This document shows positions 3,148 to 55,980 of a stretch of DNA of 64,000 bases, in pieces. The stretch is from Isoetes taiwanensis (lineage: Eukaryota; Streptophyta; Lycopodiopsida; Isoetales; Isoetaceae), in NCBI GenBank assembly GCA_021234155.1, contig JAJEKV010000529.1:94191-158190 (forward strand), in the 5' to 3' direction. Below the pieces are notes generated by a model that ran no database searches, was not told the DNA's origin, and was given only the letters and a program-made list of their open reading frames with translations. Both the position numbers and the translations under genes were made by a program. Positions within the stretch are counted from its first letter, which is position 1. The number at the start of each line of letters is the position of its first letter.

Positions 3148-6100
3148 TCAACATCGCAATTGCTCACACGTTGAAATTGTCTTTTTACATGTTGAATCTG
3201 GCCAAAACATAGAGCACCCAAAATTCAGCATGGAAACCAAATGCCCAAAACGACATACTATACACTTAAAAGTTTGACTAGTGAAGGCAGCAAACATCTC
3301 TTCAAAAAAAACAGACTGTAATTCTCTTGGAAACCCTGAATTTAGAGTGTTTACCTCTTCCCGCAATTCACTTGGCAGCCCCTTCCATGAGACTAACTTG
3401 TACAGAGTCATCACATCTGAGAACTTTATCCCCTCCCATGTATGAAAAGGTATAGCCAGTAGAATCACAGAGAGTAAATCTGCTGATGCGGGATACAAAT
3501 GGCAGAGTATCCCACACATTGTATGGCCAGTTGGGGCAGTTGGCATAAGTATGTCAAAGTGGACATCTGATGCATTGATTGGCTCATCTAGAGCAACAGT
3601 AGATCCTAGCTTACCCATATTAGTCTTCGTGGTATATTTACAGTTCATATTAGAGATATTATGACATCCAGATAGCCATGCCGCTCCATCACAGCAGGCT
3701 TTAGAAACACGCTCAGACAAAGTAAGTGAGCATGGACAACCTATTGATTTCATCCATTTGCTGATCAACATATGCAACTTCGTTGCCCTCAGTTGCTGAA
3801 GAATCCTTACCTGCAAAACAATCATGTCTCCAACTTTATTTAAGTATTAGTACCTAGCAATCGTAAAGTGTGCTTTGCTTTTTATCTGCAAATACACAAA
3901 TGAGGATGAAGTGATTGGATTATGATGCCTTTACACAAGCTTTCATCTTAAAAGAAGGTTATAAGATTGTCCTACAAAGTACTGCAAAATGGAGATAAAT
4001 TGTTGTAAACTTGCACCTTACATTCCAGACGCAGGGCTTCATCATCTTTTAAGTTTGTGCTTGGTCCCTTTACTTCAGCTATCCAGTTGATAAAACTCCG
4101 TACGTCTCCCGGAACAGAGTCCAGGAGTATAGAAAACACGTCTTCAACAGCTTTAATTTCCTTTTTTTGCATAAGTTGGGGCGCTTGTTGGAGAAGATAC
4201 TTAGACATTGCTTTCCACTCCGTACACCTGTAAGACTGAGCAAACTGTTTCATCATTTATGTTATGCAGCACACAGAACAACGAAATGCAATCTAACAAA
4301 GTTCAAACCGCGGTAAACAAGGAGTACCTCGCTAAAGTGAACAAAATAGAAGGACCTTGCTCGCCCTTAGAAATCAGCATATATCTGCAAAAACGAAGTG
4401 TAAAAGAATGATGAGAACTAAAGCCATACACACCCATGCAATATGTAATATGAGTAGCAACTTCTTTCCCAATCAAAATGCTCATCCACTGGGTGTCAAC
4501 AACAATCTAATGTTTTTCTCTGCGCGTGTGTGCAAATGCATGTGCAAAATGGTGCACAACTTCACATGTCGGACCTGCCATAGGCGAGCATGTGGCCAAA
4601 CGAAGTGGAGCATATTTTACATATTCAATAACATTGCAAAAGCAACTTGATGAGCATAAATCTGGACGGGTTTCCCTCCTTTTCAATATGATCTCACTGC
4701 ACACTGCCAATTAGCCTGGCTAAACAGGAAATAAATCCGGTGGTTCATCCCACTCCCAAAAGCCTCCACAAAATGATACAATTTCTACAAAAATCGCTTG
4801 TCTTAGCATTACTGAGGATGGATCTGAGGAAGGATCCAGAGCAGACGTACAATGATGTGCAGTGCGGCAGTTACTTTCTTGAAATTGGGACAGATCAAAA
4901 AGCGAGGCACAAGATTTACCATTTCTAAATCATAACAGGCTAAGGCAAAAAAACACCTTAGTTTTACATGATAATATACGATTAGAATGCTGCACGGCAC
5001 TATAAATCGAAAAAATGACCTGGCATCAGAGGCCTTTGCAGAAAACACAAAGTTGAGATGCGTTGGCAACTAAGTAGATTTCTTCAAATTCAGAAAATGT
5101 GCTTTCTTTATTAATGATGAGGTCATAATTCTAAAATAATGATTTCTAGGATCGCAATGAGCTCATGATATTTTACTAATATCTGCAGACATATTCTATA
5201 ACATAATATTTTGCCTAGTTATGAATTCTATTTGATCCTAACGCGCTGTCACATTTCCATCATATACACCAGAGCAGTATCCTACAGATGTTGATAGAAT
5301 CTTTCTTTTTATCCACATCCAGTACCGGTTTGTGTAATGATTCTTATAGCAAAGAAAAATTGCATAAATTGGACAGGTTAATGGTTAGCACTAACTCTAT
5401 TGTCCTCTAACTTATTATTCTATACTTGGTCATTGCTTACCCTCTTAACTTCCCCGTAGAAGAATCAATTGTGTTTATTGCTTCCCAAAGAAGTGATACA
5501 GGCACCCAATGTGGAGGATACTTGAAGCGCGCAACATCAAGTATCAAAACCATATCCCTACCCGAATGATGACCCCCAAGAGGAGAGAAATGTCCTAAGC
5601 CAGTCTGAGAAGCAATGCAAACGAAATAAATACCAGATTTTTATAACAAAAGCAAATATGTGAAAAATAGATAAACAAAAGAATGCCAGAACAATGCTTA
5701 ATTGAACTTGGTAGTTTCTTCATTAAGAATTTAGCCAGGTTTCTAGGCATGTCAAGTTTGCTGCCCAATCTGTTGACTTCATGAGACAGACTCAACTGAC
5801 TAACATCATATTATTCTAAATATTTAAATCATGTCTCATTGCCATTCTATGGTCTTGTATTGATGATCTGAAATGCACAAGAGCTAAGTTCTGATGCCAC
5901 CAAAAAAAAGATAGGCTGACTCTCACCTAAAAATGATTACAAACCTGCTGGAAAGTTTTCCTGCTGTAGGATGCCAATAAGTGAGAATTCTCAGAAGATG
6001 TACATGTCTGAATATGCTGCCGAAATGTGTCCAACGAACTTTTGTCTGCCCTGAATGCCTGAACTGATGCTCCCGCACATTCAGCTAAGCAAGCCACCTT

Positions 6101-9700: not shown

Positions 9701-9768
9701 TTTGTCATTGTGATGGGTTCCTACACACCAATCCTAGAACATTATATACGAGGCTGCTCGGAGTCATA
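6717..9768. other. Upstream flank of phytochelatin synthase, no supported gene
   Basis: This is the upstream, probable promoter side of the phytochelatin synthase gene. I see no clear TATA box within the first 200 bases. Overlapping open frames at 7312-7760 (up to 128 codons) have no recognisable domain. A 14-bp word, GTGGCTATAACATG, occurs twice near 8018-8075. A 27-bp unit starting GAATAGCAGAGAGCC is tandemly duplicated at 8544-8598. The frames on the minus strand at 8923-9470 look like chance frames. The segment ends at the left end of the large CACTA element. Confidence 0.45.
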
Positions 9769-10080
9769 CACTACAAGGGTTAATGGGGGTTTGTAACGTA
9801 TGGGTTTGTAACGCATATTGATTTGCAACGCAATTTTTGATTTGTCACACGTGATAGATAACATTGTAATTTTGTAACGTGTGGCACATTTTGTATACTT
9901 GTAACGTGTTACTAAAATTTGTATAAGCTTGTTTGTAACGTGTGACAAATATTAAATTGTGTAATGGGTTACAAATTAAAACTGTAACGTGCGACAAACA
10001 TTAAAATTTGTAACGCGTTACAAGTTTCAATTGTAACGTGTAACAAATATAACTATTTTGTAACACGTTACACAAGGCCC
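9769..10080 (+). repeat. E1 left terminal and subterminal repeat array
   Basis: After the CACTA terminus, words such as TTTGTAACGTGTGACAAAT and the palindrome TTTGTAACGCGTTACAAG recur about ten times in 300 bases, in both orientations. Clustered short repeats just inside the terminus are the binding platform for the transposase in known CACTA elements. The same words reappear at 34390-34696, and a small degenerate group lies at 27905-27995. Confidence 0.8.
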
Positions 10081-12733
10081 CCAAAAAAAGATAGTTATTA
10101 GTTTTATGGCTTACTTTTTGTATTAAACCACTAAAATAAACTAATGTTACTAAGTGGGTTAATGTGTTGAATAACCATAGGCAGTTAAATAGTGTAGTTT
10201 GCATTTAAAGTTTTTGAACGTGGTATATCCATATTGTAAATGTCTAGAGCTTTTCATTGTGGTTTGTTACTATAGTTTTTCACTATGGTTCTTTCTTAGT
10301 TTGTTGCCATGTGACATGTGGGTCAATTAATAGTTTTAGTTTTTAGTTTTTTATAGTATATGTTATAAATCACTAATGGCTTTAGCCTTAAAAAACTGTG
10401 CAACTTGTAATGGTAATTTAATCAGCTCATGAATGTCTTGCCACATGAACCATTGTTGTCGCATAGAATAAAGGCTTCAAGTTTCACATTATAAGAATTA
10501 ACAATTTATACATTAAACTATTGGTGGCTTTGTATCTTCGTAGTACTATGTAATACAAACAAACTAATCATATTTTGGATTAAACAATTGATATTAGTTT
10601 TGTAACGAAATTAAGATATATCATTTGTAAAGTAATAATAGCTTTAGCTTTAAGGAATGTGCAATTCATGGTGGTTGTCCAATGAAACCATTGTTGTTTC
10701 AAGGATCAATGGTTCAAGTTTGTTACAAAAAAAGTAAAGACGCTTTCCATCAAAACAAGTGTGGCTTTGTTATGTCAAACATGTCATGTGTTAGACGCAA
10801 ACCAATATCCTATACCATAGGATATAGTGGCGGGTTTGTGTCTTTAAAGTACTTTCCGTTGGAGACAACTCAATTATATTTTGGATAAAAAATTGATCTT
10901 ATTTTATAGAGAAATTAAGACAACTCTTTTGTTAGCAATAATAGCCCAATAATAGCTTTATCTTTAAGGAATTTGCAGGTGATTGCCTTGTTGGTTTTTC
11001 ATGCCACACACAATAACCCTAATACTAGGTCCGCATATTATTTCTCAATGTCGTTTTTGTGAAAAAAAAAAGTTCAAAAATTCAACGTTGTTTTTAGTAT
11101 TTTTTTTTCTCCAAGAAAGAATTGTGAGTTTTGCATAAAAACCTCGTGCAATTTTATAAAAATAACTAATGTTTTTTTCAAACAATAAATGATGTGGTTT
11201 TAAAAACAACATAATGTTGAAATTTTAAAAGGCACTTATATCCAAAACAAAGATAAGGCACTTATATCCAAAGCAAATAGCTGTGGCAAATGCATCACTA
11301 TTCACAATTCACAACATGGTTACAAATGTTCAGAGCATGTAAGAAAATTAAGAATTAAAAAGTTGGCCACGTATATGTTGTTTTACTGTATCTTTGGCAT
11401 TTTTGAGAGCTCTAAAACAACAATATATAAGAGCAATAAAATCGACAAATTAGATTGTTACAAAAATTAGAGTTGTAACTGTCATTGTTCCACTGTTTTA
11501 TTCATGGAGAAAGGGGGGAAATGTTGTGCTCTCGCCTAAGCTTCTCCATTACGAATCCAAGCTAAATCTGAATCCAGGGTCAAGAAATTTGACCCAATAC
11601 AGGGGTTCCGAATTTTCCCTCATCAGATCGAAAAGAGAACCTTCCAGATCGGGTCTGCATCAAAAAGCATAAATTGGGATGTGGGTCTTCACAGAACAGG
11701 GGCGGCAAGAGGCTTGGCAGGGCTCTATTCTGATAATATGTGTCTGTGCTTAAGCAAGAGCGCTACAACAAAATCGATTTGCACCACACAGCAAGTAATT
11801 TGCACTAGATATCTTCCAGGTTTAAAACCCAGAGAAAACAATTCAAGATCAACCGCAGACTTCAAAATCTGGCTAGAAAAGATACTGCAACACTCAGCAC
11901 TGTATTCCGGCTGCATGCATCCAATCGCGACCTCCTTAACTGATTCCATTTTGCTATCAACAGCTGATTCACAGCATGATGAACTGCTCAAGGCCCTTGT
12001 TAATGTCGGTCTGTGTAACCATCGCTGCCACATGCCAAGAACCATGCATTTGTGTGACATGATATATTTAACACATTAAGCAAGCGCAGACAACTGCGAT
12101 TCATTTTCCACAGATCCAAGCCATGTTCTTGGCACCAAGACACCTTCTTGAAAATATTTGGAGCAAATCCAGGACTAAGGGGTCTCTTGGCCCTGCTAAT
12201 TTGAAACTCAGAACTCTGTTCCACCATAAAGCACATAAAACAACAACGAAAAACAGAGGGTGGCATCACGCATGGTTTGGGTATGGTGGAAGACTCCAGG
12301 GATGAATTCGACAAAAAAGGCAGATCCAGGAAAAAACTCAGATATGTTTGGAAACACTCAAGGACCAAAGCTTGAGCAAAGTTTGATCTTTGAAGAGAAG
12401 AAGAGAAGGAGGCCCAACAGTTAATGATCAGAAACGGAGAGAAGGCCAGAGAAAGGCCAAGAATCAACATTTAGAAAAGAATAAGAGGATTTGAGCCCGC
12501 CAAAAAAGCCCAGCATCCACCACCAAAAGTGCAACCAATGAGATATGAAGGCTGGGATCGAGATCTAAGCCCTTGGTTTATCTTTGATCTGACAGTTACG
12601 ATATCCAAATCAGCACATAATATTATTAGAATCATTTTCAATACAAACTTATCAATAAACCCCTTTTCCAATTCGAATTTGAAATCGTGGGGTGTGTATT
12701 AGAAATTTTCGTGGCCAATCACATTATGGGACA

Positions 12734-12849
12734 TCTTGCGAAATATTCCATGAGCATCCATATGGTCTGTCCCTTTGAAGTCAAGATGGGGTCTTGCGAA
12801 ATATTCCACGAGCATCCATATGGTCCGTCCCTTTGAAGTCAAGATGGGA
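12734..12849. repeat. 58-bp tandem duplication
   Basis: A 58-bp unit beginning TCTTGCGAAATATTCCA and ending CAAGATGGG occurs twice head to tail, starting at 12734 and 12792, with only a few differences. It looks like a simple local duplication with no coding meaning. Confidence 0.85.
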
Positions 12850-15754
12850 TCGCCCCATGTTGACCCAATTTATAAGGGTCCATTTAAAAAATCCAATCCA
12901 AAGGTTACCTCATACAACACAAAAAGATGTAACCTGATACAACATTCAAGCTTCCAACTAAACAGAGCTTGGGGAATCCAACCCCAACGAGATGCCAATG
13001 CCTCCAAAACAAACCAAAACGAAGCCCGGAGGTATTGAGCCCCCGTGTTTCACTAGAAGCTTGTTATACAATAAAGGCCTAGAAATAATGACCTTGCCCA
13101 ACTTTTTCTGTGATAAGTAAGTATTGGCGTAATTTCCGCCTGTGGCAAAGAAACTTGTGCAAGAAAGAAACAAGTTGCAACACTGATGAATGCGTTTACC
13201 TAAAAATTGCGTCTGTAATCTATTTCGTAGCCATATATTTTCTTACTAGAAACAGCTCAAACCTAGCATTGTCTTATTCCTAGAAGTTGAAAGAAAGTAG
13301 CCTTGGCTGCAAATTGAAGCAAACAAGCCTCTGTGACTGCCGATCCAGCAGAAGCCTAGCCACCGTCATCAAAAGCTTCCCAGCAAGAACAAAAAATAAA
13401 TTGAAAACAACGTGAAGCTGAAGCTATGACTTCCGGCCCAAGCAACAGGCAATCCAACACCTGCACATACCGAGAATAGAAAAAAAAAAACTGAGCGCCA
13501 TACCAAACATCCCTAAACCCACGAAAAAAAATAGGGCATGGTTAAAGGGCTAATTCGAGGGGTATGCCTCGAGGCTTCGTGATCAATGGTTGAAACTTTC
13601 GATTCAATAGAGGTAGGGAGAGCATCAAGAGTACCTTCATTCTTGAACCCTTATGACTCTTGTAATTATGTATTCATGGTGGTATGAATCCCCTCATCTG
13701 ATGATTCTTATGGTGGTTATGGTTGTGTTCCGAGGGGTATGCCCCAAGGACACATGGTGTATAGGGTTTAGGGCTTATGTATTGAGTGTGTGATAGAGGT
13801 ATGAGTCCCCCATGTATTGGTTGGACTAATCAGGGTGGAACAAGTTGATCATATAGAGTACCTTAGGACACTTGTGTTTTTTCATGGTTTATGAGTTTAC
13901 TTATGGATGAAATACTTAGCTATGATTTTTATTATTATTTTTCCATATGGCATGGTGCCCAACTGTCTTGGTTGTGGCATGTAATCAAGCGGCATTCCCA
14001 AGGAAAGATGGTCTAGAGTTTAAAACTTGGGCATATATTATACTCTTGATGGTGGAACGACCCATGTACGTGATGGTTGTTTCCATTGCAGGTCTCCCCA
14101 ATTGTATGAGCCCTCCCATGCTTATCTGCTCCTAGTTTTGTCTGCTCACTGCCAGTTCACCCTGCCAGCCAATCCCATGGTGCCAAGTTACCCTTATATC
14201 TGTTGAGGTGGAAGCATGAGTTCACTCGCCCGTGAAACTGATTCTCTAAGTGCAGGTTGCCCATGAAATCGAATCTCTAAGCGCAGTCTGTCTTTCCAGA
14301 CTCCTCTTCACAAGAAAGGGTGTTTTTATGGTGCATGCCTAGATAGCTCAAAACCCAAATTCACCGTTGAATAGTCAATACCTGTGGAAAAAAAAACATA
14401 TCCACAAAATTTTTGAAAGATCCAACGGTTGAAGTGCTACAAATGCACATCAGCCTTGCCGCTGGGGCAAAATCATCCCGATGTCTCCGATGACCTGGCT
14501 GCTCCAAAGCCGCTTGACCGCCAATACTACCCTAGAGATCAAGTTTTATGGTCATCTGATATATCGACACCTCGACGTGTTCAACTCTCAGTTGATGTGG
14601 TAAGTGGAGTCATAAATGAACCCAAAAGAACTAGCTTGGACCTGAGAAGCCGAACTGACTCTGAATGCTCTACTCAGAACTCTAGTCTACAAACACAAAC
14701 ATGCTAAGGACTGAGTGATCTGCTATCAACTGAAAGCATGAAGATCAAGCAGAATCTATCAATCTACTCTTTTAATCCTAAACATCCATCCTAAGCAAGT
14801 CTAGCCTAGGCTACTAAGACTAGGGATCTAGGACCTGAGAAATGCAAGAAGGGGAGATGACCAACACTCTAGGGAGGGTTACAACTATCTCTCCAAATGT
14901 ATGCTCTAGACCTGGACTATTGGGGAATGCATGAAGCTGAAAACGACCAGGACTAGACTTCTCAGGGGCTACATGGGTGTGTTTCTAATCATATCCCTTG
15001 CAACACCGTACCCTAATGGTCCCATAGATTCCCTCCTGAGGGCAGGGAGGTCAGAGGAAGTGGGACCTTCCTCCACTGAAAATTGCAAAATCCGTGAGTC
15101 ACCACCATGAGGGAGGGAGGGAGAGGGGGAAAAGGAAGAAAACACAAGATGAATGCACAACAACCCCATGGAACCCAACCCCACCCGACCCCAACCCCAA
15201 ACAAACAAAAACATCTCGAGACACCTCCCCCGCCAAGCCCGGGGACCAACCAAAACAACGAAAACGACAATGAGGACCTTGCCGTGTGGGAACCCACCGT
15301 GTCTAAAACTTCCTAATCTCACCAACTCTAGATAAGGGCTAGCTCAATCCTACCATTCTCGGCCCACTAACTCTTAAGGGAGGAGAGATCTTGCTTTGGG
15401 AAGGAGGGGAGGGACGCTTCTTAACCCTATCGTCCATGGAACCACTATGCGAGTTTTTACTTCTCCCTTGTGGGGGCCATGGGGAAGCCCTAAGTGTGCA
15501 AGCCCTAAGGTATTCAACGTCACCAACAATGAACCCCTTCTATTTCTAGCACAATAACTTTGAAGGCTAGCTTATATGAGATGAAAAGGTTACGAGCAAA
15601 TGTAGACAAGAAGCTCTAGGCTTTTTACAGATTTTTCTTTCTTTTTCTTTTTCCCCAAGATGCAGCCAAAACTCCAAAGGAGAGCAAGAAGAGAAGAAAC
15701 CCTCTAGCCCAAAACCAGGTCTCTCCTAGATTTAAGTAAGGGGGACTAGCTATG

Positions 15755-15793
15755 CAAGTCCCATGTTCAACTCTCAGTTGAACATGGGACTTG
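15755..15793. repeat. Perfect 18-bp inverted repeat with 3-nt loop
   Basis: The arms CAAGTCCCATGTTCAACT (15755-15772) and AGTTGAACATGGGACTTG (15776-15793) are exact reverse complements separated by CTC. They would form a tight 18-bp hairpin in single-stranded DNA or RNA. It is flanked by ordinary sequence inside E1, and no gene overlaps it. Confidence 0.9.
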
Positions 15794-16329
15794 ATGCATT
15801 ATTGTGGCTGTTCTAGACTTTGGGCCCTTCCCATAAAACTTGGTCCCTAGGGTAATAATGACAGTCTGAATGCCATGGTGCAATCGGTATGGCAGAGTGT
15901 TCTTTTATTGCAAAAATATACAATTTGCATAACTATCTTGTGAAAATTAATGGATTTTCATTATAAATGCTCGCTTTAATAGCATGCACGATTTTCCCAA
16001 AAATGATTTGTTGGATGATGAAAAAGCATGTTTTTTGTTTAATGATGTTGTAAACGTATTAAAGTAGAAACATATATGGTTTGTTTGATGTTTATAAAAT
16101 ATGTTACATGTTGATGAGTGCAGCAAAACAAATTTGTATTGTCAAATAACAACATCTCTTTAATCATGCAAGTAGGCAACTAAGTTCTCAATTATTGAGC
16201 CAAATGGTTGTTGATACACCATGGCATAAGATATAATAACGTTAAATAAATAATTTGTGATTGCAAGGACCATATTGTCATCCGTGTTTCTTGAAGACAA
16301 TGAATCTATCTTCAAACTATTCCACTATT

Positions 16330-16600
16330 CATTTAGAGGTCTTAAAAAGACATTACTAGTTATAATAAACCACTAATAATTCTAGTTTGTATTTGAAATG
16401 GTCCCATAAACTACAACTAGTTTTAGCAAACCAGTAACTTGTTAGTAACTGACATAAATAACCATGTTATAAACCACTATTCATTTTGACAAACCACTAT
16501 AGCATGTGGTTTTCTACTATCAAATAAATTGTTGTATGAAAAACCATGTCTATCATGGTTTTTAGATTATCTGATACCATTTTTGTATGGTAGTTTATTT
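16330..16600. repeat. Cluster of AAACCACTA-like words upstream of the SET gene
   Basis: Words such as AAACCACTAATAAT, AAACCACTATTCA and AAACCACTATAGC recur about every 30-60 bases, with inverted versions (CATGGTTTTT). The same words occur at 10090-10900. They lie in the promoter region of the SET gene and may be protein-binding sites, or the two halves of one internal array split by a later insertion. Confidence 0.55.
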
Positions 16601-16745
16601 TTGGGCGCCTTGTGTTACAAAGATATTTCGTAAATATAGCCGTTTGAAACTTGCAATTTGAGTTCTTGTAGGCACCCATTTGAGCTTCCATGCGCCCATT
16701 TGAGCTTACAGGCGCTTGAGGCATTGAGCTTCTCTTCTAGGCGCC

Positions 16746-17930
16746 ATGGATGATCTATTTGCAGATTTGCCTGCAACCACTAGGAGAAGAAGGTTGAAAG
16801 AGCTTGTTGACGCAGGTATGCTAGATCCTAGTGCAATATCACGAGCTCCTAGAGGACATTGTGCTGATGAGTTTGAAGTATGTTGGTGTGCATCTTGTGT
16901 GGGCCAACATAATCGATTGCCTACGACGATTGAGAGGCATCTTAAGTCATTTGGTGCCTATTGGAAAGCTCCTGAGAACTTTTGTACTCGTTTTGGTATA
17001 CCTTACAACTTTCGGCTCCACCGTAGGTACGGGTTAGTAAACCCCCTTGTTTGGTTTATTTGCTAGTGTGTGCATGTTCTGCATGCATGTCCATTATGCA
17101 TCAACCATTAGAATATGCATATTACTTCTTGTTTGTATTATAAAACACATCTATTGGTATTCTAACAGACTTCAACACAACAAGCTACAATTAGTTTTTC
17201 GAGGGGAGTTTGGAGGCACATAGAGGTTGATGATGAGATGGATTACGCATGTAGTAATTCGTTATAGGACCCATAAGAAGTTGCGTGTGGATGTTATTAG
17301 TGGAAGTAGAAATTATGCTATAGGTTGTGATATACCGATCTAGTTATGCCTCATGACATTGAGAAATTAATAAGGCATGTTGACCGTAGAAGATTGGGTC
17401 TTTATATTGGTCCATTACCAAGTTTAGGTGAGGAATTCAGTTATTGGGGTCGTCGATATATAATAAAACAGTCAACGATCCCTGGTGCCGGAAGAGGGTT
17501 ATTCATTGCCCAAGATGTTCAAGTTCGCTTTGGTACAGTTATTCCTTTGATGATCTATGGAGGCCCAGAATATAATGCATTAGAGTGGGAGGCACTAACT
17601 TATTACTCGTTCCGCATGATGGTTTATGGCTGCAATAGCAATGCATGCACCATGGAGATGAGGTTGGACCGTAGCGAGGATAAGAGAACCTTCATTGATG
17701 GTCGTGTTGAAGAACATGGCAATATAGCAGGGTTGATAAATAGTTGTGGTAGTAATAAAGACTCAATCAATTGTATATTTGAGGAAAGAAGTAATGATCG
17801 TGAGGAGTTCATGGCAAAGGCATCTAAGCATTTTGTCATGGTAATGGCCATAAGAACACTCAAAGCGGGTGATGAGTTGATTTTGGACTATGAATTGCCA
17901 TCCAATGTACCAGATCATTTTCGATATTAA
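16746..17930 (+). CDS. SET-domain protein with N-terminal zinc module, carried by CACTA E1
   Basis: The first exon (from ATG at 16746, open to about 17036) encodes an arginine-rich start and a zinc-binding pattern CxCx2Cx13H (Cys46, Cys48, Cys51, His65) resembling the transposase-associated domain usually found at the N-terminus of CACTA transposases. After an AT-rich intron, the frame 17346-17930 encodes 194 residues of SET domain: GAGRG at about residues 47-51 (AdoMet loop), GNIAGLINSC at 125-134 (variant of the NHSC motif, histidine absent) and GDELILDYE at 175-183 with the end tyrosine at 182. SET proteins methylate lysines on histones or other proteins; the substrate here is unknown. The SET frame ends in a stop 12 residues after Tyr182. 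The same layout and tail length recur in E2 (50415-52069). The exact splice between the two parts is not resolved. The SET call is firm; methyltransferase activity is inference. Confidence 0.8.
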
Positions 17931-18228
17931 TCAATGTCCATTATTTCAAAATATGTTGAAATGCATATTATGTTTGTTCCACCATTATTGTTTATCTTCT
18001 TTCGCCTCTCCTTTGATTTTCAATTCAGTAAGGTGCATTTGTCCTAAACTTGTACGATTTACAATAAGAAAATGATACTTTAATAAGTTGCAAGTTCCAC
18101 TTTAAGCACTTTTTTTTTTTTTTTTGTAATAAATGGTTTTGGTAAAATGTTTAGCTTATAATTGTTATTTATCTTTGGTTTGTATTTCACATATTATTAT
18201 TATGACGTAGGTTGAAGGAGCTCCTCGG

Positions 18229-21200
18229 ATGTCAAGGTTCCATCTTCAAGATATGGAAAAGCTAGCACGAGAAAATCCGGTAATCAATGGGAATGTGGAG
18301 CAAATAAACAACCATGTTTATGATGAGATGACTCGCAATTTGCTATATGAGCATGCACAATTTGAATGTCTTATGGAAGATATTGATAATGAGGTAGGTG
18401 CACAACATATGAATGACTCAGAAGATGATGGAGTAGCTTTTGAGGTAGATCCGACTCAGTACTTTGATGAGCATATAATCCATGATGCTAAAACAAAATT
18501 ATATGAGGGTTGCAAGATATCGAGATTGACATTCAATCTATGTATTCTCAACTTACAAGGACAATATAAGATATCAAATGTGGCAATCGATGCAATATTG
18601 AGGTTTGTCTCTCCCTCCATAACTCCTAATTTTGTTTGCAATCTATATGATCTCTTACTTTGTACATCAATCTTAACTTTATCTCAATTTTTTGTAAGCA
18701 GGCTTATCAACAAAATATTGCCCTCGGCAACAGCGAGGTTCCTTCTAGTCGTGATGAAGCCACGAAAACTCATAAAGGCACTTGGTTTTGAGTATGAAAG
18801 TATTCATGTATGTCCAAATGAGTGTACCTTGTACTATAAGGACACTAAAGACATGGTAAAATGCCCTAAATGCAATGAATCAAGATATCGTAGTGATGTC
18901 CAAGGCTCGCCATCCCACCCAAAGGTATTGCGCTATTTTCCTATAATTCCTAGACTTTCTCACATCTTTTCGAACAAAGGAAAATGCTGCCTTAATGGGA
19001 TGGCATGCAAGTAAACGTGGATTCGGATGGAGTTATCGCGCATTCCTGGCGATTCCGAGGCTTGGAGATTTATTCATGAAAGATGGCGAGAATTTGAAAA
19101 GGAACCTAGACATGTTCACTTTGGTCTTGCAACGGATGGTTTTAACCCCTTTTCTAGCAACGGGTTGCCTCATGGTCTACTTGGCGGTCATGCTTGTAAA
19201 TTACAATATACCTCGGAGGAATCTATTAAAGCGGGGACATATCATGTTGAGCATGATTATTCCAGTGTTTTCACTTTTTCCACTTATTAGTAAATTTCTC
19301 ATATATATGATGAAATGTTTCAATGATTGACTTATGAATGTTGGTAATGCAGGTCCATCTCAACCAAAACAGTTTGATGTCTATCTTTTGCCCCTAGTTG
19401 ATGAATTGCAACAATTATGGAAGGGGATCCCCATGGTTGATATCTCTAAAACCAAATCTAAGGAGCAAAAGTTTTTATTAAAGGCTATCTTAATGTGGAC
19501 CATGCATGACTATCCTGGCCTTAGCATATGTACAGGTACGATTTTTTTTTTGTTTCCTTGTAAAATGGTTTGTAATTATATTGTTATATTTGTAGGCTTG
19601 CAAACAAAAGGGGAATATGCTTGTGTGCGTTGTGGTGGTCAAATCACCTCAAGATATTCCAAATCTATGAAAAAAACGGTATATGAGGGCCATGAGAAGT
19701 TTTTACCTATGGATCATCCACTTCGAAAAGGGGCACACCGAGAAACTTGTATCCCAAAGTGCATGACCACAAAAGATTGGCACAATGAATGGGAACGTGC
19801 AGAGGACAAGGCATGGCAAGAGGCCAAAAGATGCTTGTGATTTATCACGAAGACCCGATGACATCAAGATCAAGCCTCTAATGGTATGAAACGTCTTTCC
19901 ATATTATATGAGCTACCATATTGGTGGGAGTTGAAGTACACATCTCTATTGGATCCTATGCACATCATAAAAATGTTTGGATTCGATATGGAAGCATATA
20001 GTGGGTGAGAAGGATACAATTGGTTCTCGAGATGATTGTTTCTGGTGTACCCCCGCAATGCTATCTTGAAGGACCCAAAATCTAGATCCACCATGGGTTA
20101 TGAGTAGTCGGGACATACAGATTGTGCGAGAATCTATTAAGAAAGTGAGGATGCCCATTTGGGTATTGCTTTCGTCATTTCAAAGGTGTTGGACAAAGGA
20201 TGGTAAGTTAGCAGGACTCAAGTCCCATGACTACCACAAATTGTTGGCGGTAAGTTATTGTATTGCAATTTTATGCCCTAGTGCTTCTTATTCATGTCAA
20301 GCATGTTTGTCCATTTACATAGGAAGTATATTGTATTACTTATGCAATTATGCTCATTCTTGTAGGAGATTTTGCCCATGGTTCTCAGGAGAGGTTGCCT
20401 CCCAAAATTTGTGAGCCTATTTTTTAAATTGGCCAAGCTATCTGAGTAAATCCAAATATATCATTGGTCACCCTTGGTGTATTGTTTTATTCCATATTAA
20501 ATAGTTTTTTATGCATTCTGAGATGGATATCATTGAAGGAGATAAACAAAAGTGACATCGAAAAAATGAAAGAGTTATCTATTGAAGTCTTATGCTTATT
20601 TGAGAAGGTGTTTCCAACGAGTTTCTTTGATATACAGGTCAGTCTTCCAAAATCTTGATATACTAGAACTATCGTTATACAAACATCTTAATTAGTTTCT
20701 TGGGTTTCAATCATATTTGTAATATATGTTTTGTGGCCCTCATACAGGTTCACCTACTCGTACATTTAGTCGATGACATCGATTGGGCAGGACCAGTTTC
20801 TTATCGTTGGATGTTTTTTCTTGAACGATTTATGAAAGTTCTTAAAGACTTTGTGAGACAATTTGCCAAACCGAGGGAGCATGTGTGGGGGTGGCTTCTT
20901 TGAAGATTGCAAGTTTGCTGTATCAACATATCTTAATAATGTTGATAAAGAGGCAATGATGTTTCTGCAACCTGAACAAGGCTTGGATAGGTTACATAGC
21001 AAAGGGCGCACTTACAAACTAAAACCCCATGAGCTTAGTGCGATCAAATTGTATATAGTACAGAATGAGCAATGCATGTCCAAATGGGTGCAAAAGTACA
21101 ATGACTTGAAGCAAGCGAGGGAATTAGATCGGCAATTATTTGGCAACACTCCACGAGCCCCATATCCTCGAGCTAGAAAGACTACCAGATCAGGTAGCCG

Positions 21201-22166
21201 AAGATTGGCTATTAAACACAATATTGGCTTCAGCAGAAGATGAAGTTGGTTCAGTGACCGACGAGGAAAGGCAGATTGCATATGGGCCTTCAGCATGGGT
21301 AAGATAGTAATATTGTTAAGATACTTTTTTAAAAATGACTTAACATGGTTGTGCAATATGTAGGTTTCACTATATAATGGATACATTTGCAATGGGCGAC
21401 ATTTTCGTGTGCAGAAAAAGGATGAAGTTTGTGTTACCTTTGACTGTGGAGTTATGTCTACTTTCATAGTTGAAAGTCGTGCAAGTGCAAAAGACAAAAA
21501 TATGATTGAGGCTGACATTGAGTATGTCGGAAAGATACAACAAATATTAGAGCTTGACTTTAGAAATTTTACTAAAGTCTTGTTTCGAATTAGATGGTAT
21601 GATGCACAACTACGAGGCAAAGGTGCCACATTTCGTCAAGGTCCCAATGGTTTAGTGCTCATCAATTCGAAGCGGTTGATTCCAGAAGACAATGAACCTT
21701 ATATTTTTCCAGAGAAGTGTGAACAAGTATATCTACATCCAGCACCTAATGATCGAGATTGGCTATATGTGATGCAGGTCAATCCTCGACAACGAAGAGA
21801 TTATGAAGCAGTTATCGAACCTCCTCCTCTTGCATTGCATGATCATACTCGGTATAGAGGATGAGAGTGAAGACACCATCATGAGGAAGAAGTGGTACCT
21901 TTGGTGGCTGAGGTAGAAGGCATTGATATGGAAGAAGCATGTGGTACCCTTGGTAGAAGGCATTAGTATGGAAGAAACATTGACAAATGAAGAGGACGGA
22001 CGGGGGCAAGGACACAAATAATGGTGGAGTGTTTGTTTTCCTTGATATTGATGGGGATGATGGCACTCTAGAGCAAGAAATTTGTATTGGTCAAGATTTA
22101 TATGTAAACCGAGGAAGAATGCGGGCAATATTGCATGAAAATGATAATGTAGAAGGCGATGATTGA
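18229..22166 (+). pseudogene. CACTA tnp2-type transposase, frameshifted
   Basis: This is the DDE-type transposase of CACTA elements, which cuts at the CACTA ends. Domains in order: N-terminal tnp2 (LYEGCKISRLTF, then GFEYESIHVCPNECTLYYKD and VLRYFPIIPRL, 18480-18960); tnp2 core (EKEPRHVHFGLATDGFNPF at about 19090; FDVYLLPLVDELQQLW at about 19373; MWTMHDYPG at about 19495; ACVRCGG at about 19620); DUF4218 (HLLVHLVDDIDWAGPVS, FMKVLKDFVRQFAKP, 20750-20880, on to about 21240); DUF4216 (LDFRNFTKVLFRIRWYD, EPYIFPEKCEQVYLHP, 21360-21860); and an acidic tail ending at the TGA at 22164-22166. One clear intron is 18603-18701. Frame changes near 18976 and 19030, plus later in-frame stops, make it a pseudogene unless some are sequencing errors. 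The start at 18229 follows a likely acceptor. It lies 300 bp downstream of the SET gene. Confidence 0.9.
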
Positions 22167-22319
22167 ACTCATAGGAACGGATGGCAAATAGACAATATTC
22201 GATAATATTCTTCTTAATATGTTTTTCAAATATTAATGCCTTGACAATGATTGTTGGCTCAAAATTTAGATTAATGTAGATGTAGGGGTAACATTTAGGA
22301 TTCATATCTAACTCACTAC

Positions 22320-25300
22320 AAAAATGTTCCCAAAGACCAAAACTTCGGCACCCAAAATGCACTTATGGGGTTTCGCTGGGACCTTCTATTCACGGCGTCA
22401 TGGGGTTTCGTTTGAACGCGCGGTTTGATATGTTCTCCGGACGGATGTCGAACTTGAACAAAGGATTCAATGGTGGGATATAGAGCACGCCAAAAAGTCG
22501 AGGCTGCTGCCTCGAAGGGAGCTTTTAAGCGCCGCCTATCTAATGAGGACGCCTTGCAAGGTCTGGCCTTGTTTGCTTGGGCAAGTTTATGACGCGGACG
22601 TATTATAATTAATCTAAACCTTTCCAAAATTTTTAAGTCCTGTATGTTGGCGATGACTACTATGCATTAATTTAAGTCCATTACTATGCATTAATTACAA
22701 TTCGAATGTCTTGCTCTGCGCAAATGCGGCCCTTGACTTCTAAGCTGCCACAACGGGAGAGTACAGGTCCAAACTCCATTCCGTCGGGTTCCCCTTGCTT
22801 CGGCGTACTCAAGCGCATGTGATTGGCCATGTCCCAAGTGCAAAAGACCAAAACTTCGGCACCCAAAGCGCAAAACACGCTGGCTAGAACACGGCAACTC
22901 ATAGGGTTTACGTCGAGGGGCTCTATCCTTGTCGGTCGACTAGGACCTTTGTAGTGTCTTGGCGTAGAGGGGGGGTGTTGGCCTTGAGCCACGGACCCTA
23001 AAACCACCGGGCGGCTTGCCCCAAAAGTCCTCTCAGAAGGCCACGGCGGCGGACGGGCAACTTCCCCTCTCGGGAACCGTGATCTGTCTCGCCCAATGGA
23101 CTCGAAGCGTCTACATTGCCCTAGTGACCAAGTTTTTGTGGGCGAAGCCCACCCCTTCTCGAAGAAGCCAAACTATCTCATGTGCAACAACTTTCGTAGT
23201 CAATTGGCCTAGGAGGTGGCTGGCGAATCTTTGCAATGTAGGGCATAAGTGTTTCTTTCTTTTACCAAAGCCAGCCGTATAACTTGGTCCCTAGGGTAAG
23301 TTTGGCATTCCGGACGATGTGGCAAAGTCGAATCGCCATTTCGGAGCCTCCACAATGTCCGAACGACAAAACACTTTGGTTTTACACTTTTCGCCCGCCC
23401 GGGGCGCTTGGCGGTTTGATATGTTCTCTGGGACGGATGTTGGATTTTTTGGACCTTCTCGAACCAGGTTCCTTGAACAAAGGATTCAATGGTGGGATCA
23501 CGGGGCAGAGATGGGAAGTGTGGTCTTTAGCGTCGCCCGTGGGCTTTTTTGCGCCGAGAAAGGCTGCCTCGGGAAGCTTTTGGGGCTCGCCTCACGGGGT
23601 TGGACTCTCCCCTCTAATGAGGAGGCCTTGCAAGGTCCTGGCCTTGTTTGACTTGGGCAAGTGTGCCAGCTCGGCTGCCCAACAACAGGCTGCCCGGACC
23701 GTTCTAATGCAAACTATTTGATCTAAATCTTATCCAAAATTTTTGAAAGTTGGCATGTATGTTGGCGATGACTTAGGAAGCTAGCTGACAAAAAATCAGA
23801 ATTTAAGTCCGTACTATGCATTAATTACGAATTTACGAATGTCTTGCTCTTTGCAAAAGCGACCCTTGACTTCTAAGCGCCACAGCGGGAGGATTCTGAG
23901 GTCCAAAGCGTATTCCGTCAGTTCCCCTTGCTTCCGTTCTCAACTGCATGTGATCGGCCACGTCCCAAGTGCAAAAGACCAAAACTCGGCACCCAAAACG
24001 CAAACCCTGCTAGAACCTGGCAACTCATAGGGTTTACGTTTCGGAGGCTCTATCCTTGTCGGTCGACTAGGACCTTGCGCCGTGTCTTGGCGTAGGGGGG
24101 TGTTGATGCGAGCCACGGACCCTAAAACCACCGAGGCGGCTTGCCCCAAAAACTCCTCTCGAAGGCCACGGCGACGGACGCAACTTCCCTCTCGGGCTGT
24201 GATACGTCTACGCCAATGGACTCGAGCGTCGACATTGCCCGAGGGACCAAGTTTTGTGGCGAAGCCCACCCTTCTCGAAGAAGCGCCAAACTATCTCATG
24301 TGCAACACACTCGTAGTCAATTGGCCTTGGAGGTGGGCTCTTTGAATCTTTGCAGGTGTTTCTTTCTTTTGCAAAGCCCGGCCAGGTGTAACTTGGTCCC
24401 TAGGGTATTTTGGCATTAGGACGATGTGGCGAAGTCGAATCGCCATTTGAACCTCTAATGTCCGAACGATAAAACACTTTGGATTCTACATGCGTCGCTG
24501 AGGGCCTTGGCGGTTTGATATGTTCTCCGGACGGATGTTGGATTTTTTGGACCTTCGAACCAGGTTCCTTGAACAAAGGATTCAAGCGGTTGGGATCACG
24601 GAACCAAGATCCGGGAGTGTGGTCTTTAGCGTCGCCCCGTGAGGAGCTGCCCGAGGAAAGGCTGCCTCGGGGAAGCTTTTGGGGCTCGCCTCACGGGGTT
24701 GGACTCTCCCCTCTAATGAGGAGGCCATGCAAGGTCACGGCCTTGTTTGACTTGGGCAAGTGTGCGGCTTTCATTTGCCCAACAACATTTGGCCCGGACG
24801 TTCTAATGCAAACTATTTGATCTAAACCTTATCAAAAATTTTGAAAGTTGGCACTGTATGTTGGCGATGACTTAGGAAGCTAGTGACAAAAATCAGAATT
24901 TAAGTCCGTACTATGCATTAATTACAAATTTACGAATGTCTTGCTACAGCAAAAGCGGCCCTTGACTTCTAACTGCCACAATGGGAGGAGTACAGGTCCA
25001 AACTCCATTCCGTCAGTTCCCCTTGCTTCGCGTTCTCAACTGCATGTGATCGGCCACGTCCCAAGTGCAACAGACCAAAACTCGGCACCCAAAACGCAAA
25101 CCCTGCTAGAACTTGGCAACTCATAGGGTTTACGTTTCGGAGGCTCTATTCTTGTCAGATTCGACTAGGACCTTGCGCCGTGTCTTGGCGTAGGGGGTGT
25201 TGATGCGAGGAGCGGACCTAAAAACCACCGGGCGGCTTGCCCCAAAGTCCTCTCCGAAGGCCACGGCGGACGGACGGGCAACTTCCCTCTCGGGAACCGT

Positions 25301-26640
25301 GATCATCTCGCCAATGGACTCGAGCGTCGACATTGCCCTAGGGACCAAGTTTTGTGGCGAAACCCACCCTTCTCGAAGAAGCGCCAAACTATCTCATGTG
25401 CAACACACTTTGTAGTCAATTGGCCTAGGAGGTGGGTTCTTGAATCTTTTGCAATGTAGGGCGTAAGTGTTTCTTTCTTTTGCAAACGGACCGTGTAACT
25501 TGGTCTCTAGGGTATTTTGGCATTCGGACGATGTGGCGAAGTCGAATCGCCATTTCGAACCTCGCAATGTCAGAACGACAAAACACTTTGGTTTCTACAT
25601 TGTCGCCCGCAGGGCGCCGTGGTTTGATATGTTCCCGGACCCGGATGTTGGATTTTTTTGGACCTTCTCGAACCAGGTTCCTTGAACAAAGGATTCAGCG
25701 GTCGGATACGGAGGCCGAGATCGGGAGTGTGGTCTTTAGCGTCGCCCCCGGGGGCTGCGAGGAAAGGCTGCCTCGGGGAAGCTTTTGGGGCTCGCCTCAC
25801 GGGGTTGGGACTCTTCCCTCTAATGAGGAGGCCTTGCAAGGTCTGGCCTTGTTTGACTTGGGCAAGTGTGCGGCTCATTTTGCCCAACAACGGCTGCGGG
25901 ACCGTTCTAATGCAAACTATTTGATCTAAACCTTATCAAAATTTTTGAAAGTTGGCATGTATGTTGGCGATGACTTAGGAAGCTAGCTGACAAAAATCAG
26001 AATTTAAGTCCATACTATGCATTAATTACGAATTTACGAATGTCTTGCTATTGCAAAAGAGCCCTTGACTTCTAAGCGCCACAACGGGAGGAGTACTGAG
26101 TCCAAACTCCATTCCGTCGGTTCCCCTTGCAGCGTTCTCAGCTGCATGTGATCGGGCCACGTCCCAAGTGCATAAGACCAAAACTTCGGCACCCAAAACA
26201 CAAACCACGCTAGAACACGGCAACTCATACGGTTTACGTTTGGGCTCTATCCTTGTCGATTCGACTAAGACCTTGCGCCGTGTCTTGGCGTAGGGGGGTG
26301 TTGAGGCGAGCCACGGACCCTAAAACCACCGGGCGGCTTGCCCCAAAAGTCCTCTCGAAGGCCACGGCGGCGGGCGGGCAACTTCCCCTCGCCGGGCCGT
26401 GATGCTACGTCGCCAATGGACTCAGAATGTCGACATTGCCCTAGGGACCAAGTTTTGTGGCCAGAAGCCCACCCCTTCTCGAAGAAGCGCCAAACTATCT
26501 CATGTGCAACACACTCGTAGTCAATTGGCCTAGGAGGTGGGCTGCGAATCTTGCAATGTAGGGCGTAAGTGTGTCGTTTTTTTGCAAAATTGACTGTGTA
26601 ACTTGGTCCCTAGAGTAATTTTGACTTTCCAAACGATAAG
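22320..26640 (-). repeat. Tandem array of about four 1.1-kb units (array 1)
   Basis: The anchor GGTTTGATATGTTC recurs at 22423, 23413, 24512 and 25621, giving periods of 990, 1099 and 1109 bp; the first unit carries deletions. Other landmarks recur in the same order in each unit, for example CTAATGAGGAGGCC, ATGCATTAATTAC and TTGGCGTAGGGGG. Each unit holds an inverted pair, CCCTAGGGACCAAGTT and AACTTGGTCCCTAGGG, about 150 bp apart. Copies differ mostly by small gains and losses of bases, so no reading frame stays open between units and a coding role is unlikely. The minus strand is given because the related array at 56.7-64 kb runs the other way. Confidence 0.9.
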
Positions 26641-26897
26641 CGACGTCAGATCCGCGGGCGGCGTTAAGCGGCGTTTTTGTGCGTGTACGACACGCCGCGC
26701 TTGCTGGCGTGGCGCCCGGCACCATGTCCGCGGGCATGGTGGACCGCGTCGGCTGTTTATGTGGCGTCGTTGAGCGATGTCGTGATGCGTTGAGCGGCGT
26801 CCGCGGTCGTCAAGCGGCGTTTGTCGTCGTTCCTCGACGACTTGAAGTCGTTCAACGACCTTTAGACGTCGTTGAAGGTCGACTATCCCTTGTAGTG
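26640..26897. repeat. GCGGCGT-rich subterminal zone of the nested element
   Basis: Words such as TTAAGCGGCGTTT, GTTGAGCGATGTC, GTTGAGCGGCGTC and TCAAGCGGCGTTT recur through this GC-rich stretch, ending at CCCTTGTAGTG. Similar AAGCGGCGTCG words lie at 56571-56655 beside the second array. Such clustered short repeats are typical of CACTA subterminal regions. Confidence 0.7.
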
Positions 26898-34389: not shown

Positions 34390-34696
34390 TTTGCAATTGA
34401 CACCCGTGACAACGAACTATGGTTACAATTACGAGTCACTCGTGATGCGTGACAAATGTAAATACACGTGGTATAAAAATTAATTAGTGACGCGCGACAA
34501 TTACGATTAGAATTTGTTACACGTCACAAATATTATTATAGTAGCGCGTTACAGAATAATATTTTGTAACGCGTTACAAGTGGTTCTTCGTTGGTAACGC
34601 GTCACAAATCACCTTTTGTGACGCAAATAAAAAAATACTAATTAATGTATTTTCTGTTACAAAAAACGTTACAAACTATATTATATTCTATTAGTG
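34390..34696 (+). repeat. E1 right subterminal array and terminus
   Basis: The words TTTGTAACGCGTTACAAG, GTTACACGTCACAAAT, AACGCGTCACAAATC and GTGACGC recur in both orientations up to CTATTAGTG at 34696, followed by the ATA target duplication. They are the same words as in the left array, which is the best evidence that the two ends belong to one element. Confidence 0.8.
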
Positions 34697-34699
34697 ATA

Positions 34700-35870
34700 T
34701 TCAATGCAAAATTGTTGGCAATGACCCAACACAGCAACATTGATATAGTATTATGTCATAAACATCCTTCTTTGTTGTGGCAATAGTTACAGGATCATAA
34801 AATGCTGGCTCTGATTAGTTGTCTGCATTCTACATTGAATTATGAAGATGAAGCTCAAAAACCCTTCTCCTCTCTTTATTTGCGATGAAAGATTTTGTGA
34901 ACCAGCTAGAAGGAATGGATGATTGTGTTTTCACAATCATGCTAATAAGGCATCTAGATGATGGAGTACCTTTGTTCTCGGGTGCAAGACCAAGCATTTA
35001 CCTTTTGTAGAAGAATGAAGGGAGCTTCAAAAATGGCGAGCCTTCCTGGCCTACCTATCCAGTTCCTCTTCTTACTACACGATCTGTACAAACCCCAATC
35101 CACCCATATAAGAAAATCTTATGTTTGTTAATCGTGCAGCATCCATGAACTACGCTAGAGTGAAATAGATGGATCAAAATTTAGCCGTAGTAGACTACAC
35201 ACAAGCAACCCAACAAAATGTTGGATTTAAAGCAAAAGCAAAGCACTGAAAAGGCCATGTGAATGGGGAGTGGTTTAACTGGACAAATTCCCAGTGGTTT
35301 TTTCGGACATCCGGAATCAACCAACCCCGTCCCATCCGACCCCATGGCATGCAGGATCCTCAATCCATGCCCCCATCCGACATCGCTGCATCGCATCCCT
35401 CGCATGGATCCATGACCCATCCATGCCAACCCTCCATCCATGCCGTACCTAGCATTCCTTTATTCCTGCGACAAAGGTACATGGAGGTAACTGCCTCACG
35501 CCACTCGAACTAGGTCATTAAAGACAAAAATAGAATTTTTCATGCCGGATTCGATCCATTTCAACAGGGAATATGTACAATTTCCCTTTGGATGATACCC
35601 TGTTCAAACGCCCTTTACTAAATGTTCACCCTCCAAGTTCGATGGCAATAGAGGCGGACTGCGTGGATCCGGATGTGTTGCAAGTGAGTAGATCACTCCA
35701 GTGTTTTATAGTTTTTAAAGAGTTCAAGCTTCCTCATCCTCGCAATTAACTAGTATCCCCAACTCTGGCCGTTTTGACTCGAAATTTATATCCATTTTTA
35801 CTAAGGCCTTTCTTACTTCAGAGGTTGCAGCTTGGATGCATGTCCTGATTAACCATACAAGAAACTTATC
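34700..35870. other. Intergenic stretch, no supported gene
   Basis: I see no recognisable protein. Part of it (35330-35450) is rich in repeated CCATGC/CATCC words, which create opposed open frames (35181-35513) of no coding value. The rest is ordinary AT-rich sequence. Confidence 0.5.
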
Positions 35871-39086: not shown

Positions 39087-39233
39087 AATGCTTCGTGTAA
39101 TTCCTTCTTGCTCTTGTTCTACATATGATCCAGATTCAGATGCTAATGATGGGTTAAAGGGTGTTAACGTATATTGTTCGTAGTATTGAATATAAGTCAG
39201 CGTATCAAATACATGATCAGGCGGACGTAAGAA

Positions 39234-55100: not shown

Positions 55101-55980
55101 ACTACAGGCTTTGACCGATGCATATCACAAGGGGGAGTATATTACAGCTACGGAATGGGCATACGCACAAGGTGTCATGAAAAAGGTAGTTGCAACAAAT
55201 TATGTTGATGTCGAAATCGAGTATTTTCTTTTGATGTTATTGTATCTATTGACATTAATGGTGCTTTTGGCCGGTATATATCTTACTCCTCGATATGGTG
55301 GCATGGGACCCACTATCGTGTGAGTTCTCTTGACATACGGGGAAGACTTGTGGCTGCAGTCATGGCATCATTCGATGGAGTTTCAATCAAGTGTTGCCGA
55401 TCGTGTCGTCGAGGGAAGCCACACTGTGATTGGGTGGGAGGTTAAAGACTATAATGGAGGTGGATGTTGGTGGCAATTTTAAGACCTTCATATTCGATGT
55501 CGATTGGTTTGACCTTCAATTAAGGGGGCGGGCCTACGGTAAAAGTATGATAGAACAAGTGGCTTTTTTTTGTCAACTCTAGCAAGATGTACCACGGTAG
55601 TGAGGCGCTTGTCCTTCGGACAAGCGTGAGCAGTACACACATACACATATCCACTTCAAAATTTAGACCATCAATATCAATCTCCGTCCGGCTTCTTTGA
55701 CCAGATTTTTTTTCTTTACCGTCGACAAGACCCAACATGGTGGTTTATCATACAAACTACAGAGGGGGCCCAATATTTCAAGGTGTTGTGCTAGAGAGTC
55801 AATAGCGTCGAAGAGCCCTGGCGGATCAAGGCATTCAAACTCAGGAAAAGCGAGCATCAGAGGTTGGACCACCGGCTCTCATGCGGCATCTTACACGAGC
55901 AATTCCACGAAATCTGGATGTACTTGGGCATTTTAATACAAATGTTGGCAATGCTAACAATGGCGACTCTAGTTAGCACC
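52200..55980 (+). pseudogene. CACTA tnp2-type transposase of E2, heavily frameshifted
   Basis: Transposase blocks occur in the canonical order across changing frames: GLGYKVIHACPNDCMIFY (about 52795-52850); AWKHVDRDMATLEKEPRSVR (53159-53220) and the GLATDG-equivalent; LDVYLRIIVDELLPLW (53379-53430); MWTMHDFHRFC and FPCMICGEKLQHRHSK (53488-53600); DUF4218 with HLLVHLIEEVELHEAV and FLERFMKVLKDMVRQKP (54610-54730); DUF4216 with GNFKTFIFDVDWFDLQLRG (about 55475-55535) and DPTWWFIIQTTEGAQYF (about 55725-55780). The acidic N-terminal stretch near 52290-52370 (DIAYDQYEEDETIAE) also matches E1 in position. Frameshifts and stops are frequent. It starts about 150-300 bp after the SET gene, the same arrangement as E1. 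Confidence 0.85.

Follow-up and report, generated by a model that had tools for sequence, protein, structure and literature searches.

A conserved SET-domain gene ahead of the transposase in a large, old family of CACTA elements of Isoetes taiwanensis

DNA transposons that have incorporated a gene for a SET histone methyltransferase are represented by HarbingerS and the SET-bearing MuDR transposons of Phytophthora (Kojima & Jurka 2014, as cited in a passage of PMC12730594). The subject of the present study is a comparable arrangement in the lycopod Isoetes taiwanensis, where a SET-domain reading frame precedes the tnp2 transposase of a CACTA (En/Spm) element, here named E1, and of a second, diverged element, E2. 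Both lie in one stretch of 64,000 nucleotides (contig JAJEKV010000529.1 of assembly GCA_021234155.1, positions 94,191 to 158,190, forward strand), which is called the window and supplies all coordinates given without a contig. The oomycete elements, as that passage describes them, belong to the Harbinger and MuDR superfamilies, whereas those of Isoetes are CACTA/En-Spm elements with tnp2 in a land plant, the comparison being one of descriptions and not of sequences. Among the scanned open reading frames of E1 and of two other loci, L024 and L031, no match to a Harbinger or MuDR transposase was found, the transposase being tnp2.

Other transposons carry different enzymes or proteins of this kind. 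Fungal EnSpm and other DNA transposons bear TET/JBP genes, which have been proposed to evade silencing (PMC12730594, in the section on these elements). They share with E1 the presence of a chromatin- or DNA-modifying enzyme on EnSpm-type elements; as far as that account goes, however, their chemistry is DNA oxidation, their hosts are fungi and one type has often been exchanged between superfamilies, while the Isoetes SET tracks tnp2 across classes. The VANDAL Mutator-like elements (MULEs) of Arabidopsis encode VANC, which acts sequence-specifically on the epigenetic state of the element (passages of PMC10398659 and PMC12730594). As described there, the likeness lies in a plant DNA transposon that encodes a protein directed at its epigenetic state, a role that is putative in E1, and the difference lies in the MULE superfamily. 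To our knowledge, VANC is not a SET protein. Canonical plant CACTA/En-Spm elements have TNPA and TNPD, of which the accessory TNPA is a DNA-binding protein and is not known as a SET protein; tnp2, CACTA ends, a 3-bp duplication and, commonly, subterminal repeats are common ground with E1, the accessory gene being TNPA there and SET here. In primates, SETMAR is a SET domain fused to a mariner transposase and thus likewise joins SET with transposase, but it is a single domesticated host gene and does not belong to a transposon family that multiplies.

Searches of an open-licence library (including PMC1633745 and PMC8616336; Repbase Reports lies outside this scope) brought up no CACTA element described as carrying a SET gene. 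A barley paper in which both terms occur has a host SET gene and a CACTA element on different bacterial artificial chromosomes. A review from 2026 on how plant transposons capture genes (PMC13317346) contains neither “methyltransferase” nor “SET domain” in the available portion of its main text. A preliminary description of the window had called a SET gene unfamiliar as a CACTA component, a statement which stands for CACTA elements within the open-licence library searched but not for transposons in general, since other superfamilies have SET genes (PMC12730594, in the passage concerned). What is new here, on the portions of these sources available, is a SET gene in the CACTA elements of a land plant, a transposon-borne SET having already been reported in other superfamilies.

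Spread, descent and selection of the SET exon

A large old family of CACTA elements in I. taiwanensis carries a conserved SET gene ahead of its transposase. In the window, the parts concerned are the following.

9769-34696, plus strand: E1, a CACTA (En/Spm) element of 24,928 bp with nested insertions; both ends present, coding parts broken
16746-17030, plus strand: exon with a CxCxxC-x(n)-HL-x-G pattern (zinc-binding-like), with which the SET gene, and possibly the transposase too, begins
17331-17930 (core 17346-17927), plus strand: SET-domain open reading frame with its own stop; Pfam SET E 7.4e-6, over the curated cut-off
18211-20414, plus strand: tnp2 region of E1, exons broken; PF02992 E 1.5e-23 at 19331-19840
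20540-21861 (start approximate), plus strand: DUF4218/DUF4216 part of the E1 transposase
51554-52050, plus strand: SET remnant of E2, interrupted by a stop and by frame changes; three collinear pieces match the E1 SET (tblastn), with a joint E of 1.9e-17
52764-53757, plus strand: tnp2 remnant of E2, with collinear matches; PF02992 E 1.6e-9 on 53243-53524
55415-55531, plus strand: DUF4216-like remnant of E2; tblastn E 2.5e-4

The SET therefore lies just upstream of tnp2 in both elements, in the same order and orientation, as had been described from the bare sequence. The tnp2 region of E1 is collinear with the 513-aa tnp2 open reading frame of L024 (tnp2 E 9.6e-76), and the DUF4218/DUF4216 part of E1 aligns with 349 of the 370 positions of the L024 reference, the DUF4216 match at 21364-21864 (E 4.9e-6) falling slightly under the Pfam cut-off. 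In E1 the SET core is open and the 5' part of the SET exon and tnp2 are broken; in E2 both SET and tnp2 contain breaks. On alignments anchored on L024, which favour that class, the E2 SET is 39% identical to the L024-class SET and 21% to that of E1, and the E2 tnp2 is 41% identical to L024 and 28% to E1.

The searched genome comprises 1.66 Gb in 1110 contigs, the window being C252:94191-158190. With the SET protein of E1 as query, 151 matches were reported, whose identity falls from 100% to roughly 40% (150 scored out of 1,488 first-look candidates), while an L024-class SET gave 142 (1,852 candidates) and an L027-class SET 154 (1,207 candidates), the three lists overlapping. The pairing by coordinates used the best 72 of the 151 SET matches, 65 of 150 tnp2 matches and 54 of 150 DUF4216 matches (DUF4216 to 9 kb), and its counts are lower bounds, not rates. 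A tnp2 was located 0-6 kb downstream on the same strand of at least 29 of the best 72 SET matches, against 0.008 expected, typically at 1.6-1.9 kb; tnp2 or DUF4216 followed at least 34 of the 72, and one SET match had tnp2 and DUF4216 on the opposite strand. Seen from the transposase, a SET stood upstream of at least 29 of the 65 tnp2 matches listed and of at least 31 of 82 further ones, and in the latter set no listed SET lay on the other side or the opposite strand; this second set, from which 3 of the 150 had been dropped as second pieces of listed places, was paired with 104 of the 154 L027-class SET matches and 22 SET matches on the same contigs, hand-picked from the E1 and L024-class lists. 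Among the best 60 of 167 PF02992 matches, paired with 43 SET matches chosen by hand and partly by contig, at least 17 had a SET upstream, and at least 23 of the 104 L027-class SETs had a tnp2 among the matches listed. Twenty loci, chosen among weak Pfam SET matches and most with open frames, were also fetched: an E1-type SET was present in 18, tnp2 pieces followed in the same order in 15 of these 18 (5.7 kb downstream of the SET in L019), and DUF4216 was recognised with the E1 query in 9 of the 15. Four other copies used below (C1018, C1077, C889 and C1034) were chosen since SET and tnp2 had already been seen there.

In several diverged CACTA classes, homologous SET exons stand collinear with the transposase and have been inherited together with it. 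Identity to E1 correlates between SET and linked tnp2 (Spearman 0.67, n=29), and so do the two distance matrices, with Mantel values of 0.86 over 21 copies, 0.81 without E2 and 0.94 for 7 representatives (permutation P 0.0001, 0.0001 and 0.0018, respectively); because many copies are near-duplicates, these P values do not count independent events. The trees of SET, of tnp2 (21 copies) and of DUF4218/DUF4216 (copies with enough sequence) each separate an E1 type (E1, C1018, C1077, C889, C1034) from an L024 type (L011, L024, L025). E2 groups with the L024 type in all three, a placement that the L024-anchored alignments favour, and the copies of a further type, L009, are less well resolved, some of them being broken.

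The exon is also under purifying selection. The ratio of nonsynonymous to synonymous divergence (omega, by the pairwise method NG86) was calculated for 18 chosen pairs of open-frame copies, and in 11 of them it was computable, significant and between 0.14 and 0.34. Values of 0.14 for E1/C1077 (P 3.6e-22), 0.19 for E1/C1034, 0.21 for C1077/C889, 0.24 for L009/L026 and 0.30 for L024/L025 were obtained, the synonymous divergence (dS) exceeding 1 in every E1 pair except E1/C1018. Between C1077 and C889, 4.0% of the sites differ in the intron between SET and tnp2, and the SET codons have a nonsynonymous divergence (dN) of 0.016 and a dS of 0.076. For L009/L026 the corresponding comparison of introns (193 aligned sites, 40% of them different) was too badly aligned to be usable.

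The SETs of the E1 and E2 classes form one family, whose similarity to presumed host SETs is only weak: a profile of the family gave any match in four of eight presumed host SET loci, at a best E of 0.38, which makes a recent capture from these host genes unlikely. On this result, the association with tnp2, the matching distances and the low omega taken together, the SET belongs as a regular component to several CACTA classes that have diverged from one another, and is not a chance capture. The idea of an old CACTA lineage with the SET as a standing component, which the preliminary description had inferred from two copies too diverged for independent recent capture, is well supported by the genome search, the comparison of trees and distances and the codon analysis which it had proposed.

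The SET protein and the structure of its gene

Pfam SET was matched by 12 of 12 aligned members of the family. The GxG, HGN..A..INS and GDEL..Y positions, which we take to be the cofactor and catalytic motifs of SET methyltransferases, are kept across classes of about 40% identity, with NS in place of the usual NHS. With an AlphaFold2 model of low confidence as query, the 50 Foldseek matches shown were all SET structures (MLL1, SET7/9, SETD8, NSD2, PRDM9 and others; best E 4.2e-5), though they superposed poorly on it. A single-sequence search of PDB with the SET protein returned nothing at E <= 1, and the weak matches of a profile search of PDB sequences include KMT2A and EZH2, of which the first is an activating and the second a repressive SET protein. 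No relative was found in the phage records searched or in IMG/VR and the GTDB genomes, for which the scan consisted of two short peptide patterns before confirmation, and Rfam gave no match at the gathering score. Judged by its sequence, the protein of the element is quite probably an active lysine methyltransferase.

A CxCxxC..H exon (the Zn-type exon) was found upstream of the SET in 18 of 23 copies, of the E1, C1034, L024 and L009 types, by means of a loose pattern without chance control, and its codons are constrained among four E1-type copies other than E1. In C1018, C1077, C889 and C1034 its donor site reads CAG followed by GTTAGT. By eye, phase 0 applies to the Zn-type donor and to the acceptors of both the SET exon and the first tnp2 exon in C1018 (E1-type), C1034, L024 and the L009-type copies L015 and L026, and the Zn-type exon could therefore join either SET or tnp2. 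The tnp2 residues that precede the first ATG can be aligned from copy to copy (VEGAPRM in E1, VPDAPRI in C889, REDGHRM in C1034), this ATG is missing at that place in C889 and L024, and in L024 the tnp2 frame follows the SET stop at a distance of only about 145 bp. Because of these conserved residues and the short gap, the tnp2 reading frame probably joins an exon upstream of SET. We also considered whether SET might be fused to tnp2 through an internal donor close to the SET stop; by eye, no GT is kept there in all classes.

The coding order is the CxCxxC..H exon, the SET exon with its own stop, and the transposase exons with tnp2, DUF4218 and DUF4216. On the simplest reading, the SET exon would serve as an alternative terminal exon within the transposase gene, lying in its first intron, and the Zn-type exon would be spliced to either SET or tnp2. 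Methyltransferase and transposase would in this way have a common N-terminal DNA-binding module, which could lead them to the same subterminal repeats (TTTGTAACG). For this arrangement, with a SET in the first intron, a Zn-type exon spliced either way and both proteins sent to the same repeats, the prospects appear evenly balanced. The wider proposal, namely that one CACTA gene would yield two alternative proteins that begin with the same DNA-binding module, one of them a transposase and the other a SET methyltransferase from the intronic terminal exon, the latter being a sequence-directed chromatin writer that has co-diversified with the transposase, must be regarded as rather doubtful.

Borders of the elements and neighbouring sequence

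E1 is a CACTA/En-Spm element, with tnp2, CACTA..TAGTG termini, a 3-bp duplication (resolved for E1) and subterminal short repeats. Its homology with the near-identical copy C1018 starts at 9766, with ATA followed by CACTACAAGGG at 9769, and the left flanks differ past ATA. For the right border a 10-kb query was used; 15 of its 72 matches stop at 34693-34700, the remaining matches being mostly inner parts or another repeat, and the boundary reads ATTAGTG followed by ATA, with TAGTG ending at 34696. The ATA duplications occupy 9766-9768 and 34697-34699 (3 bp each), and the C1018 copy likewise has ATA on either side, consistent with a 3-bp target-site duplication. From the homology boundary with C1018, the clustered match ends and the ATA on either side, E1 is placed at 9769-34696. 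Exact identity in the inverted repeat of its ends is limited to the CACTA letters, and the 350 bp at the two ends contain 7 and 3 motifs of the TTTGTAAC type against a window average of 0.1, counted without a shuffle control.

The 5' CACTA sits at copy boundaries in other members too, namely C1018, C1077, C889 and the L011/L024/L025 class. Between C1077 and C889 the homology sets in at CACTACAAGG, with unlike flanks, and in the L011/L024/L025 class it starts at CACTACTAGAGAATGG or no more than about ten bases away, where the flanks differ. On the 3' side, the sequence shared by L024 and L025 (joined with L037/L038) gives way in either copy to unrelated DNA after a poly-A tract, and it was at such tracts that the tracing of 3' ends in the L011/L024/L025 class stopped.

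Two insertions account for part of the length of E1.

10073-16613, strand not assigned: 6.5-kb insertion within E1, missing from the C1018 copy, with inverted ends CAAGGC..GCCTTG
22314-26897, strand not assigned: nested CACTA element with ACT/ACT duplications, containing tandem units akin to those of the 56.7-64 kb satellite

Two open reading frames scanned in the first insertion gave no Pfam match (E <= 0.01). The nested CACTA is found in the C1018 copy as well, at 1.06 kb. An end of E1 at 22-27 kb was rejected, as the 22314-26897 piece is flanked by ACT and nested and the true 3' end is at 34696; the end near 22.2 kb given in the preliminary description is corrected accordingly.

Positions 56700-64000 hold a tandem array of GC-rich units of about 1.1 kb, which reaches the window edge and has 7 copies in family D1. 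The reverse complement of its units recurs in the nested CACTA at 22.3-26.9 kb, which suggests a satellite related to CACTA internal repeats. About 2.6 kb past the 3' end of E1, a Helitron remnant lies on the minus strand at 37335-40246 (Helitron_like_N E 1.2e-14, Pif1 2B domain E 5e-8), and to the left of E1 an open reading frame at 3148-3846 on the minus strand matches Pfam Phytochelatin_C (PF09328, E 3.6e-19) and is perhaps a host gene. Elsewhere in the assembly, two near full-length open rbcL matches (G000:C1052:5415867 and C840:19969) are 93% and 92% identical to a spinach rbcL query; one may be a plastid contig and the other an insert.

Possible roles of the SET protein

The explanation mildly favoured overall is a diversified CACTA/En-Spm lineage with its own SET writer, which would keep its ends permissive. 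The SET would methylate histones on the element's own copies, and the ends would thereby stay permissive for expression or transposition. Such a role of histone methylation, comparable to that of VANC in VANDAL, is put forward tentatively, with doubt slightly prevailing; since the SET codons are constrained, a benefit to the element is favoured. The preliminary description had likewise suggested that the lineage may act on host chromatin, whether to counter silencing or to mark target sites. Among the possible functions, permissive ends and anti-silencing would come first, self-silencing second and methylation of the transposase third.

Several results weigh against the permissive-ends explanation or the anatomy on which it draws. 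Among the matches listed, 43 of 72 SETs and 87 of 147 tnp2 had no partner, and three of the 18 fetched SET loci (L010, L022, L027) had no recognisable tnp2 in the fetched DNA. In 5 of the 18 codon comparisons, all of very close pairs and including E1/C1018 at 0.77, omega below 1 was not significant at 0.05, and another 2 were not computable (saturated), though with strong P values. The AlphaFold2 model of the SET is of low confidence (mean predicted local distance difference test score, pLDDT, 58.5; predicted template modelling score, pTM, 0.61), its Foldseek matches have TM-scores to the query of 0.31-0.38 and a root-mean-square deviation of at least 10 Å, and the profile search of PDB sequences reached a best E of 0.021, with one of the top three matches non-SET by name. 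The CxCxxC..H exon was not found in L012, L020, L021, L022 and L027, the last being the only L027-class copy read; its similarity to Pfam Transpos_assoc is sub-threshold (E 0.028-0.062 in three of five exons, that of E1 not among them), and unrelated helix-turn-helix (HTH) and helicase families match these exons at least as well as Transpos_assoc does.

The SET may instead deposit a repressive mark on the element's own copies, as a form of self-silencing or copy-number control by which a heterochromatic CACTA lineage would persist harmlessly to the host. The anatomy would be identical, the CACTA copies are numerous and nested, which is compatible with a heterochromatic niche, and the weak structure-profile matches include the repressive EZH2 beside the activating KMT2A. 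However, a self-silencing gene should tend towards loss under selection at the level of the element, yet omega is 0.14-0.34 in 11 of the 18 pairs, and this explanation is considered unlikely. Less likely again is a non-histone substrate such as the transposase, whose activity or nuclear import the SET would tune. SET enzymes with non-histone substrates exist, structures of SET7/9 with TAF10 and with ER are among the Foldseek matches, and SET and tnp2 evolve in step; co-inheritance by itself, however, suffices for the tracking of tnp2 by SET.

Functionless fragments of host SET genes taken up by independent CACTA elements are very improbable: CACTA elements do capture genes (Pack-CACTA, in the available portion of PMC13317346), but the SETs belong to a single family, occupy the same position in several classes, show distances that match those of tnp2 and are mostly under purifying selection, and their similarity to the eight presumed host SETs is weak. 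A host SET family merely neighbouring tnp2 elements, which the many intact SET open reading frames and the three fetched loci without tnp2 could suggest, is just as improbable, as it conflicts with the borders of the elements in the E1 and L024 classes, with copy homology that begins at the CACTA ends and spans SET and tnp2 together, and with their nearly constant spacing and orientation.

How transposons survive under host silencing is a long-standing question, and a plant transposon family that keeps a SET gene brings to it a defined, predicted enzyme, a likely target in the subterminal repeats and many natural variants. With such a family it can be asked whether elements write their own chromatin marks, and whether these marks activate, hide or restrain them. 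Some predictions of SET-domain genes in such genomes may in turn be transposon genes mistaken for host epigenetic regulators. A SET gene conserved ahead of the transposase suggests that the element, beyond being silenced by its host, may mark chromatin itself.

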